Shown here: piece by piece, positions 20,170 through 23,419 of the stretch
How positions within the stretch are numbered: position 1 is the first letter of the stretch
Layout: every line of letters starts with the position of its first letter
Assembly: GCA_021648685.1 (NCBI GenBank)
Contig: JAKISI010000006.1
Coordinates: forward strand, 1-64,000
Reading direction: 5' to 3'
Source: Candidatus Polarisedimenticolaceae bacterium
GTDB lineage: Bacteria > Pseudomonadota > Gammaproteobacteria > Chromatiales > Chromatiaceae
Length of the DNA stretch: 64,000 nucleotides
Made by a program: the position numbers and the translations under genes
The notes under the pieces: model-generated
What the model saw: only the letters and a program-made list of their open reading frames with translations
Told to the model about the DNA's origin: nothing
The model's database searches: none

Positions 20170-21825
20170 CTATCCTTCATCTGCCTTTCTCTTATCACTC
20201 AATAGCCGTTGATAAAAGAGATCGACCTCTTCAAGCAGCTTGGCACTATCCATATCTGCTGCCCAGCAGCACTCAATTCGCTTGCGATCGGTTTTTTTTC
20301 TAAGGCTTGGGGTTCGCTCGCGCCGCAGTCTCTGCTCTACCCACTGATTGCCAAACCGGTAGTGACAGTCAAAAGAGCGGCAGCCTGATATTATTACGCC
20401 ATCTGCCCCCTTTTTAAGCGCATAATCGACAAAGCCTGATGGCAGCATGCCTGTGCAAGGGAGTGTAATGGTCACTACTCCGGGAGCATCGATGGCCGTA
20501 ACATCAACACCATGTCGGCACCCATAAACCAGGATTTTTACCGAGCCATCAACGGCTGACAGTGCTGACTTAACCGCAGCATGCATGCCGTGTACCGGGA
20601 TGTCTGGAAGGTCTATACCTGTCGTTAACTGCTCATCCACACGCCGGAAAGGATTAGAGGAGGGGCATGATCCGATACAGATCCCGCATGAGGCACACAG
20701 TTGCGGGTTCACCACGGCCTCATTCTGCCAGCGCGCACCATCACTGCGCGCCCGTATTGATACGGCATCATAAGGGCAATCTTCAAGGCACTGGCCGCAT
20801 CCATTGCAACGATCCAACTGCACGGTTGCCGCAGCTGGTGTCTTTCGCCAGGGCAGCCAGGGCAGAAGCAAAAGTAGAAATGTCACGCCAAAAATCAATG
20901 CCCAAACCGCCTCTGCGCTCCAATAGCGAAGCAGTGGAAAGATATTGAGATAGAACCAGTCAATATCCAGTTCGACAGGGACACTCAGCATATCAGCCGG
21001 GGCATGGCTGACCACAGGCTTGATCAATGAGAGTGCCAGCAGCGCCAAAAAACTGCCCAGAGCCAGCCCCACTGGCCCCATCGGGCTTACATTTGAGATG
21101 CGTTTGACATGAATCCACAACGCAAAAATCAGCCCCATCGGGCCACCCACTATATGCAGCAGTATCATCAGGGTAAAAAATCTGTCATTTATATTTTCAC
21201 CCAGAAAATTACGCGCCATCCCCCCGCCAATCAGCGGCAGCACATCCAGCAGCTTTGCAGAACCCAGTGCAACATATTGCGCTACCTGATCCCACACCAG
21301 CCAGTATCCCGTGATCCCCAGCATCACCATTAACCATAGCGGTACCATGCCCGTAACCCATGAGAACCAGCGAAAACCACGAAAGCGATCCAATGCATAT
21401 TCACGAAGAATATGCACTACAACCACAATGAGCGCAGCATCTGATGCATAGCGGTGAAGGCTGCGCATGATGCCGCCAAGGTACCACTGCTCATGGGTTA
21501 GATATTCAATGGATTGATAGGATACATGCAGACCCGTCTCAAAAAATATATAGAGATAGATACCGCTGACAAGTACGATCCACAGAAAAAAGAAGGCCAG
21601 AGAACCCAAATGGTAGAACGGGTTCATTGCGGTGCCAAAAGCTAGGTTGAACCAGGCCTCACTACAGGTAAAGATGTTTTTTAGCGGGTCTTGCAGATAT
21701 CTCTTCACCCCGCCATTGCTTATCCTGTCATCCTCAGACACCAACAGCTGGTGCTGCGCAGATTGGCTTTCTGATGGGGCGGTGCATTTGTTACTAGATG
21801 ATTTCATTGCGTTATGCATTTCCAC
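20170..21825 (-). CDS. Cytochrome b / ferredoxin / MvhD-like fusion protein
   Basis: A 551 aa membrane redox protein made of three modules. Residues about 60-330 are a cytochrome b6-type domain with two bis-His haem pairs, H124-x13-H138 and H224-x14-H239. Residues 340-387 hold two CxxCxxCxxxC 4Fe-4S motifs (C340/343/346/350 and C377/380/383/387). Residues about 430-500 match the MvhD/FrhD hydrogenase iron-sulfur subunit family (LPCTGMLPSG, GADGVIISGC, DCHYRFGN). MvhD normally passes electrons to heterodisulfide reductase. The fusion suggests a membrane link between a quinone pool or cytochrome b and a soluble thiol/disulfide or hydrogenase-type partner. The first MvhD Cys pair appears reduced to a single Cys (YGCRHG). 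It is downstream of, and probably in operon with, the cyclic-nucleotide/rhodanese gene 61 nt away. Confidence 0.85.
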   Translation of the reverse strand: MEMHNAMKSSSNKCTAPSESQSAQHQLLVSEDDRISNGGVKRYLQDPLKNIFTCSEAWFNLAFGTAMNPFYHLGSLAFFFLWIVLVSGIYLYIFFETGLHVSYQSIEYLTHEQWYLGGIMRSLHRYASDAALIVVVVHILREYALDRFRGFRWFSWVTGMVPLWLMVMLGITGYWLVWDQVAQYVALGSAKLLDVLPLIGGGMARNFLGENINDRFFTLMILLHIVGGPMGLIFALWIHVKRISNVSPMGPVGLALGSFLALLALSLIKPVVSHAPADMLSVPVELDIDWFYLNIFPLLRYWSAEAVWALIFGVTFLLLLLPWLPWRKTPAAATVQLDRCNGCGQCLEDCPYDAVSIRARSDGARWQNEAVVNPQLCASCGICIGSCPSSNPFRRVDEQLTTGIDLPDIPVHGMHAAVKSALSAVDGSVKILVYGCRHGVDVTAIDAPGVVTITLPCTGMLPSGFVDYALKKGADGVIISGCRSFDCHYRFGNQWVEQRLRRERTPSLRKKTDRKRIECCWAADMDSAKLLEEVDLFYQRLLSDKRKADEG

Positions 21826-21886
21826 AAGCGGTCAACTGGGAGTTCTGGTACTCCAACAAGGTTATTTGGGAAGAGCCAGTAGCTGG

Positions 21887-23419
21887 CTAACGCTCCTCTT
21901 TTGCCGCTTTCAGCTGTTGCTGAAGATCATCGACCTGCTCTTTTAGCTGTTTCACTTCAGCAAGCCCCGCTTTGTCATTCTCTTCAGAGGCCTCTAACAG
22001 AATCTCCATCTCAGCATTCAGCTGCCTCTGCCCGGATTCCAGCTGCCGGATCTCTCTCTCGCGCTCGGCTTTTTCATGCTCAAGCTCCGCAATTCTCTGC
22101 ATCAAGGCCTCATCTCCACCAGCATGCTCTTGCGCGGTACCGCTCTCCTGGGACGCCGCAAGTTTTAACTTCAAATCCTGCACCATCTGTTTCAATGTAG
22201 AGATGTTGGTCACAAGTCTATGCTGTACCTGCTCATATTTTTCAGTGGTTTCAAGGAGATTCTTCTCCAGCTGGACCACCTGTTTTCTGGCCTCATCACG
22301 CTCCTGGATTAACCTGGATATATCTACAGTTTCATCAGCATCCTGCTGCGGTAGCACGGCCTCGTCCTGAGTGTCAGCGGCTACGCTCTTCTCCACATGA
22401 AGCAGGCGATCAATGCCATCTTTAAGCACAACAGCTTTGACATCACGCTCAAACAGCAAAAAAGCCGCAACCGCACTCTGATTGCCATCCGCACAATAGA
22501 CAACATATTGGCGGTCAGTCCCCAGGCTGCCAATCTGAAACCGCAGCGAATGCAGCGGTATATTGATGCTGCCATCCATGCCATTGCGCTGATGCTCGGC
22601 CGGGTCTCGCACATCCAGCCATACACCACCCGCCTCAACAATTTTACAGGCCTTCTCATAATCTACATTTTTGGTCAAAGGACGTTTTATAAATGCAGTA
22701 AAATCCTCTTTGCCTAAACGGAACAAAACACCATCCGTCAGCATGGTCACTGAGCAGCCCCTGAGCTTGTCCGACAGCAGCGCCTCTTCCCCAAAGCTAT
22801 CCCCCGCCCCCAAGCGGGCCAGCTCTTCAGCCTCGCTGTGATGATCATGCTTTCGGGTTACTACACAGCGCCCTTTGTGGATAAGAAAAAAGTAGCACCC
22901 TTCATCACCCTGTTTAACCACCTCATCCCCAGCCTTTACCTCCACCCGCTCCATCCGCATCATGACATTTTGGATATTGGCAGGCGGTATGTGCTGAACA
23001 ACGGATGACCTCAGCAGCTGGGTCATCCAATCTTCATCAGCAGCTGGATTGCTTTCCGTTTGGGTCGGTGTCAGCAGCCCGCTAAGCAGCTGGCTGTCAA
23101 TGCTGACAAACTTGACGGGCTCTTTGGCTCTGGCCGAGAATTTTCGCGGGAATTGGTGTGCCAGGGCAAAACGTGCGGTCTCTAAATCATCTGTGATGGT
23201 GTCTACCACCTTATTGTTCAGCAGCAGATCAACCCGGCCTGAGAGCAGGTAGACATTTTTGGAGTCAGTATCACCCTGGCGGAACAGATACTCGCCTCTT
23301 TTTATATATTTTACGCTGGTTTTTTCCAGCAGTGCAGCTCTGTCATTATCAGACAGCGTATTGATCGGAACCCGCGTCTTCAGCAGCTCCGCTTCTTTAC
23401 TTGTTGGCATTACAGCCAT
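21887..23419 (-). CDS. Dual cyclic-nucleotide-binding, rhodanese and coiled-coil protein
   Basis: A 510 aa cytoplasmic protein (ATG 23419, preceded by GAGGTG; an earlier TTG at 23440 is less likely). Two cyclic-nucleotide-binding domains lie at about residues 25-115 and 135-245. The second has a near-complete phosphate cassette (FGEEALL with Arg about five residues on), so it may bind cAMP or a relative; the first looks degenerate. A rhodanese domain follows at about 255-355 with active-site C309 (YCADGNQS), then a long charged coiled coil from about 390 to the end. No DNA-binding domain is seen, so it is likely an allosteric or scaffold protein. The adjacent cytochrome b-ferredoxin-MvhD gene suggests that it tunes a sulfur-linked redox complex. 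That role is inferred. Confidence 0.82.
   Translation of the reverse strand: MAVMPTSKEAELLKTRVPINTLSDNDRAALLEKTSVKYIKRGEYLFRQGDTDSKNVYLLSGRVDLLLNNKVVDTITDDLETARFALAHQFPRKFSARAKEPVKFVSIDSQLLSGLLTPTQTESNPAADEDWMTQLLRSSVVQHIPPANIQNVMMRMERVEVKAGDEVVKQGDEGCYFFLIHKGRCVVTRKHDHHSEAEELARLGAGDSFGEEALLSDKLRGCSVTMLTDGVLFRLGKEDFTAFIKRPLTKNVDYEKACKIVEAGGVWLDVRDPAEHQRNGMDGSINIPLHSLRFQIGSLGTDRQYVVYCADGNQSAVAAFLLFERDVKAVVLKDGIDRLLHVEKSVAADTQDEAVLPQQDADETVDISRLIQERDEARKQVVQLEKNLLETTEKYEQVQHRLVTNISTLKQMVQDLKLKLAASQESGTAQEHAGGDEALMQRIAELEHEKAEREREIRQLESGQRQLNAEMEILLEASEENDKAGLAEVKQLKEQVDDLQQQLKAAKEER

Follow-up and report, generated by a model that had tools for sequence, protein, structure and literature searches.

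The stretch of DNA analyzed here, 64,000 nt of contig JAKISI010000006.1 (the window), carries at positions 20170-23419 two neighboring genes (Table 1). One encodes a single protein in which a cytochrome b is fused to a ferredoxin and an MvhD-like domain (the fusion), and the other encodes a protein with two cyclic nucleotide monophosphate-binding (cNMP) domains, a rhodanese domain and a coiled coil (the partner). A reading made earlier from the sequence alone had placed the two genes here and proposed that together they form a membrane module that moves electrons between the quinone pool and a cytoplasmic thiol or persulfide system. The presence and make-up of both genes are confirmed by open reading frames (ORFs) on the minus strand and by Pfam matches. 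Cytochrome_B (4.7e-18), Fer4 (9.4e-9) and FlpD/MvhD (1.1e-15) all fall within the 551 amino acids of the fusion ORF, while two cNMP stretches (5.9e-27) and Rhodanese (1e-7) were found in the partner, whose domain scan was run from an in-frame ATG at 23410.

Table 1. Coordinates of the two genes and their domains in the window.
Feature	Position	Strand	Remarks
A-type fusion: bc-type cytochrome b, 2x[4Fe-4S], MvhD	20170..21825	-	551 amino acids from GTG
cNMP-cNMP-rhodanese-coiled-coil gene (partner)	21887..23419	-	likely start ATG 23419, stop 21887; upstream neighbor of the fusion in the window's genus
Cytochrome b part	20854..21690	-	residues ~46-324 of the fusion
Ferredoxin part, two CxxCxxCxxxC motifs	20656..20853	-	residues 325-390 of the fusion
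MvhD/FlpD part	20200..20535	-	residues 431-542 of the fusion; cysteines 436, 457, 482 and 487
Rhodanese domain, intact Cys in CADGNQS	22409..22642	-	within the partner gene

The amino-terminal half of the fusion resembles the cytochromes b of bc1 and b6f complexes. The match to cytochrome b6 covers residues 67-251, and that to subunit IV of b6f complexes covers residues 254-324. Four transmembrane helices, which hold the putative heme ligands H124, H138, H224 and H239, are followed by two subunit-IV-like helices. Among 87 aligned members of the family, H224 and H239 are kept in all 87 and H124 and H138 in 86, the one gap being a contig end. An AlphaFold model of the whole chain (predicted local distance difference test score, pLDDT, 85.5; predicted template modeling score 0.84) finds its closest structural matches among mycobacterial and mitochondrial bc1-type cytochromes b (Z 21.2, root-mean-square deviation 3.4, 257 aligned residues), although families missing from such match lists are not thereby excluded. 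Sequence and model point to two bis-histidine heme b sites in helices B and D of a bc-type cytochrome b, and because of the helix count and the bc/b6f topology, the Fe-S part of the protein would lie in the cytoplasm.

The likeness to bc1 and b6f cytochromes b, which extends from the four histidines in two helices to the overall fold, raises the question of whether the fusion is a Q-cycle enzyme. The Qo sites of bc1 and b6f cytochromes b carry the motif PEWY. In the fusion, this position is occupied by xDWFY (DWFY at 289-292), in which D289, W290 and Y292 are invariant (87/87) and F291 is found in 81 rows; this constancy and the subunit-IV-like helices are what a bc1-like enzyme would be expected to show. 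However, Asp replaces the Glu of PEWY, and a Q-cycle offers no role to an Fe-S extension on the cytoplasmic side. Furthermore, no Rieske family was found among the six neighbors in the window, nor among the nine neighbors of one B-type cluster (defined below) and a c7 cytochrome, a scan of neighbors rather than of whole genomes. A Q-cycle function is, thus, very improbable.

The carboxy-terminal half is related to components of heterodisulfide reductase (Hdr) complexes. Pfam FlpD scores 58.1 bits on the fusion versus a cut-off of 22.3, and positions 568-768 of the 777 in the NCBIfam HdrA2 model match residues 329-541 (3.7e-26, below the whole-protein cut-off). The eight cysteines of the two 4Fe-4S clusters and the four of the MvhD part are, like the heme ligands, kept in 86-87 of the 87 rows (with a gap at a contig end, and R in place of C340 in one row). 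A model of residues 325-551 alone (pLDDT 94.0) aligns with MvhD/ElpC chains (Z 10.5-11.1, 111-115 residues) and with the C-terminal ferredoxin of HdrA (residues 576-654; Z 7.2, 79 residues, 35% identity); a Z below 8 alone would be weak, ferredoxin folds are common, and the HdrA-tail match leans on sequence. MvhD and the ferredoxin tail of HdrA form the electron inlet of soluble Hdr complexes. The fusion has the same elements in the same order, a ferredoxin tail and then MvhD, but lacks the flavin adenine dinucleotide (FAD) domain and the Hdr catalytic part, is joined to a membrane cytochrome, and has one cysteine fewer than stand-alone MvhD. By sequence and model, it is a cytochrome b that carries the predicted electron inlet of an HdrA2-type protein.

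Among known systems, QmoABC also uses a cytochrome b and HdrA-type modules to join quinone and cytoplasm, as is proposed here for the fusion; the latter differs in being one chain and in having a bc-type cytochrome in place of the HdrE-type of Qmo. Frames of 750-790 amino acids with MvhD-like ends, probably QmoB, occur in relatives; within the window's genus, the matches at E <= 1e-8 include no such frame. The top NCBIfam match of the fusion (3.5e-29) is ExtP, a b-type cytochrome of selenite/tellurite operons; it was rejected as an identity, the score being 102 bits against a cut-off of 290, with the 205-position model covering only residues 68-244. No published name for a cytochrome b-ferredoxin-MvhD fusion was found in the open-licence literature.

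The fusion belongs to a family that is widespread among proteobacteria. In a tblastn search of named genomes (E <= 1e-3), 504 of at least 591 listed stretches encode a relative of the query, not necessarily all of them fusions, and the best 80 loci were used for comparison. They come from Gammaproteobacteria, Magnetococcales, Rhodospirillales and relatives, and include Thioalkalivibrio denitrificans. Because 78 single ORFs longer than 480 amino acids match the fusion in these loci, it is one gene and not an annotation artifact of two, as the sequence-only reading had held.

Neighboring ORFs were assigned by BLAST matches to reference genes of this lineage, a procedure that distant neighbors may escape and that yields few neighbors on short contigs. 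At least one of COX1, COX2, SCO and CyoE was present in 63 of the 80 loci, and the typical gene order is COX2-COX1-CyoE-SCO1-fusion followed by a membrane-anchored protein of ~170 amino acids and often by a second COX1-like gene. With the three A-type copies (see below) of the window's genus left out, SCO1 lies directly upstream of the fusion in 59 of 68 loci that have 1 kb of upstream sequence, and the small protein lies directly downstream in 71 of 73 loci that have 300 nt of downstream sequence. The cluster's COX2 carries the CuA motif (42/42). Its COX1 keeps the CuB and heme histidines and has Gln at the position of the HPEVY tyrosine in all 46 full-length rows. Enzymes called sNOR, qCuANOR or "degenerate B family" likewise lack the active-site Tyr, according to passages in three reports (PMC3475470, PMC6967387, PMC6431628). 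The COX1 of the cluster is, by its features, of the sNOR/qCuANOR type, an assignment read from motifs and gene order rather than from a tree with named sNORs.

The association also holds across genomes. At E <= 1e-160 the fusion occurs in 12 of 55 related genomes, and the cluster's COX1 occurs in the same 12 (six of these belong to one genus; 7 of 50 genera are represented). Among 299 genomes sampled across the phylum, 33 have the fusion, 29 have the COX1 and 28 have both. The gene neighborhoods show that the usual home of the family is a heme-copper gene cluster of apparent sNOR/qCuANOR type. The copies within it are referred to as B-type; one of them, a paralog on contig C34 of the genome that includes the window, sits in such a cluster split over contigs C34 and C32. 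Recent surveys of nitric oxide (NO) reductase diversity may already depict these clusters. In the passages available from the sNOR/qCuANOR literature, where the cluster appears as NorSY-SenC or as that of a "degenerate B family oxidase," no such cytochrome b fusion is named (PMC3475470, PMC6967387, PMC6431628).

Variations on this cluster were also noted. In Thioalkalivibrio denitrificans (L142 6689-10485), two different fusion genes stand in tandem around the small-protein gene, and four further genomes (G187, G252, G278 and G329) likewise have two close fusion matches on one contig. The second COX1-like protein (L068 10456-11823 and 31 further rows) keeps His65, 212, 343 and 345 in 32/32; no helix VII His-His pair was seen by eye in these rows, and it is possibly a heme protein without a normal CuB site. 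In four Magnetococcales loci (L131, L134, L135 and L156), the genes for the fusion and the small protein are followed, at a distance of 1-5 kb, by one for a NarH-like Fe-S protein (34-40% identity).

The window copy stands outside this home cluster, with no COX2-COX1-CyoE-SCO1 around it and no ~170-amino-acid protein after it. In a family tree made by a quick method and midpoint-rooted, it falls in a clade (A-type; SH-aLRT 100) that is nested in the family and comprises the window's genus and one Sedimenticola genome (G017, locus L080). None of the A-type loci is part of an sNOR-type cluster, and no small-protein gene adjoins the fusion wherever downstream sequence is available. By these comparisons, the window gene is best described as a divergent paralog, an A-type duplicate away from home. 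The 14 positions with A-type-specific residues are scattered over regions, with no clustering on one face of the protein.

The surroundings of the A-type gene differ between the two lineages. In the window's genus, it lies between the cNMP-rhodanese gene and housekeeping genes; PgpA, AIRS/ThiL-like, NusB, Dus and IlvD flank the gene pair in the window. In G017 (L062 1463-10282), nqrABCDEF, a c7-type multiheme cytochrome c (nanowire_3heme) and the A-type fusion form a single same-strand run. NqrA was identified in relatives by family TIGR01936, and the other Nqr names are assumed from gene order. In the window's genus, an orthologous nqr operon (77% identity) directly precedes a cytochrome with 13 CxxCH motifs in G000 and G002, whereas one gene separates the two in G004; G003 and G005 have a more distant nqr operon, which lacks that cytochrome. 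The 13-CxxCH cytochrome (L177 624-8419, L180 and, after one gene, L179) was taken as an unusual neighbor for Nqr.

The partner gene was viewed in the sequence-only reading as a nucleotide and persulfide sensor, with two cNMP domains and an intact rhodanese cysteine. Both domains and the cysteine are present. The FGE...R motif, which binds the cyclic nucleotide phosphate, is found in the second domain only, where F206, G207, E208 and R217 are kept in 21, 22, 22 and 23 of 23 rows, respectively (a set that counts the window gene and the G017 gene twice each); the first domain lacks it. The active-site Cys of the rhodanese is kept in 20 of the 23 rows. By sequence, the second of the cNMP domains looks competent, as does the cysteine of the rhodanese. 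Matches of the partner among solved structures are mostly to cNMP-binding domains (kinase subunits and others) and to rhodanese-bearing proteins, and no published description of cNMP-rhodanese fusions was found in the open-licence literature.

The partner probably starts at ATG 23419, because MAV.PTS is common to the genus orthologs. The 61-nt gap between the genes reported earlier follows from a GTG start of the fusion at 21825. In three genus orthologs, the start corresponds to residue 7 of the fusion (ATG 21807). This ATG appears the more likely start, and the gap may therefore be 79 nt. No terminator-like site was seen in the gap, and a promoter scan was uninformative (12 sites versus 3.5 expected). 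The ratio of nonsynonymous to synonymous divergence (dN/dS) is low, with values of 0.07-0.15 among the A-type fusions (10 pairs, of which 8 were computable) and of 0.10-0.14 among three pairs of the partner, and suggests purifying selection on both genes. For the partner, this is countered by G005 (L040 977-2547), in which the gene occupies two overlapping frames, as if frameshifted, whether naturally or by assembly error.

Within the six genomes of the window's genus, the pair is found in five (G000, G001, G003, G004 and G005), which are all the assemblies with DNA upstream of the A-type fusion; the contig of the sixth ends inside the fusion, and the partner of G003 is divided between two contigs. 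Of the other named loci, 68 have at least 1 kb of upstream sequence, and none of these showed the pair. The cNMP-rhodanese core itself, counted at E <= 1e-27 because weaker matches are mostly single-domain, is present in 30 of the 55 relatives, including 10 of the 12 fusion carriers and 20 of the 43 that have no full-length fusion, and sits in short open frames of ~350-400 amino acids or in frames of 600-1,860 amino acids. In the window's own genome, a cNMP-cNMP-rhodanese paralog (L076 3939-6869) ends in a C-terminal FGE-sulfatase domain.

Given this distribution, the two genes may simply be accidental neighbors, a fusion copy and a cNMP-rhodanese copy that each entered the interval between pgpA and the dus gene in the genus ancestor. 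The housekeeping genes on both flanks, the apparent frameshift in G005 and the situation in G017, where the fusion and a cNMP-rhodanese ortholog (53% identity) lie on different contigs in unrelated surroundings, all favor such an origin, to which we give somewhat less than an even chance. On the other hand, adjacency has been retained in five assemblies despite a synonymous divergence (dS) of 0.6-1.7 in the partner, and because it has outlasted such wide divergence, pure accident is argued against. At most, the cNMP-rhodanese protein would be a regulator of the fusion, and not a redox subunit. As far as seen, the pair is absent outside one genus, an outcome that the sequence-only reading had named as one that would refute it, and the proposed module is a genus-level curiosity rather than a system deserving attention.

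The thiol or persulfide pathway was not supported either. An exchange of electrons through the fusion between the quinone pool and thiols or persulfides, with the partner as sensor, would agree with the adjacency of the genes on the same strand, with the missing terminator and with the seemingly intact second cNMP domain and rhodanese Cys. Against it stand the restriction of the pair to one genus, the 20 relatives that have a cNMP-rhodanese protein and no fusion, the apparently frameshifted partner of G005, and the identity of the conserved neighbors of the family, which are sNOR-type genes. A tblastn search with HdrA, HdrB, HdrC, MvhD and Flox from the window's genus, which did not cover Sox, Dsr or hydrogenase genes, found no Hdr gene or separate MvhD in 1.06 Mb around the best 80 loci; it gave two FloxA-like matches, one of which is the NqrF of L080. 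Furthermore, AprA, SoxB and DsrA gave no match above curated cut-offs in the genome (98.8% complete), although 14 named control genomes also gave none and, hence, provided no positive controls; below the cut-offs lay three aprA matches and a single dsrA match. With no Sox, Apr or Dsr gene exceeding its cut-off, the genome does not resemble that of a classical sulfur oxidizer. The proposed membrane electron module is supported in its anatomy, which fits a path that joins quinone to an Hdr-type partner in the cytoplasm; its link to thiols or persulfides is left without support and is improbable.

The genome does possess a separate HdrA-Flox operon. Such an operon of a gammaproteobacterium (L058 484-6112; L073 2171-10268) has the order HdrB-HdrC-FAD_binding_2 (570 amino acids)-HdrA-MvhD-FloxCBA-like. 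The operon's stand-alone MvhD has counterparts of at least 89% identity in six of seven A-type carriers (G003 being the exception) and of 53-54% identity in two genomes that lack the fusion. The window's own genome has a second MvhD, 99% identical, on a 3.9-kb contig (L059), and the MvhD frame of G005 contains one TAG.

Taken together, the anatomy and surroundings of the fusion suggest that it acts as a one-piece membrane electron conduit that leads from a flavoprotein of the cytoplasm to quinone or to a redox partner in the periplasm, a proposal to which we assign a probability of roughly 0.6, with redox partners and direction inferred. A cytoplasmic flavoprotein would dock at the MvhD part, and the HdrA-Flox complex would be the obvious candidate donor in this genome. 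Electrons would then pass from MvhD through the two 4Fe-4S clusters to heme b(n) and heme b(p) and on to quinone or a periplasmic partner, the hemes occupying, as electron acceptor, the role that the bifurcating FAD has in HdrA.

Reverse flow is a serious rival, although we consider it unlikely. Here, quinol would deliver electrons to the hemes, from which the proton-motive force would drive them on to the clusters in the cytoplasm and to an acceptor of the Hdr type. In HdrA2-like chains, an MvhD-ferredoxin tail stands at the input side, which counts against this direction. In its favor, the same parts would serve, the genome has its separate HdrA-Flox operon, and a route involving ubiquinone and leading from MvhD to HdrA has been proposed for Sporomusa ovata, according to a passage in one report (PMC9430772). 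In contrast, MvhD/ElpC feeds HdrA in the Hdr complexes described in another report (PMC12350162).

Several observations weigh against the conduit from flavoprotein to quinone or periplasm. The direction of flow is drawn by analogy with HdrA2 and MvhD. Of the five cysteines present in stand-alone MvhD, four recur in the MvhD part, in an alignment read by eye, and assembly of a 2Fe-2S cluster is, therefore, not certain. No Hdr gene lies near any of the best 80 loci, and the connection to Hdr-Flox comes from two genera and is weak. The A-type gene of G017 lies behind nqr and a multiheme cytochrome, and the electron-transfer partner may, thus, vary by lineage. The association with the sNOR-type cluster has exceptions as well: five genomes of the phylum sample have the fusion and no COX1 (four are 69-82% complete and one is 96% complete), and one, G121 (97% complete), is the sole genome of the 299 with the COX1 and no fusion. 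Finally, no biochemistry of the fusion family was found in the open-licence literature.

A more specific and tentative extension of the conduit proposal, which we regard as more doubtful than probable, is that the family constitutes an undescribed electron-entry unit of proteobacterial sNOR denitrification. It would carry electrons directly from cytoplasmic Hdr/Flox-type flavoproteins to the NO-reducing branch, bypassing complex I and bc1, while the A-type duplicate would have been redeployed to another periplasmic acceptor, such as the multiheme cytochromes found in these genomes. The physiological role of sNOR-type enzymes is debated, as passages in two of the reports indicate (PMC6967387, PMC6431628), and a testable partner protein narrows this question. 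It is the fusion family, closely associated as it is with sNOR-type genes, that deserves attention. It offers Magnetococcales, Rhodospirillales and Sedimenticola-like bacteria a candidate route by which low-potential cytoplasmic electrons would enter, or leave, the NO-reducing branch.

As a separate observation, clusters of multiheme c cytochromes beside a molybdopterin oxidoreductase, named from Pfam matches, were seen in the window's own genome (L165, on contig C3) and in G005 (L163, on contig C84).

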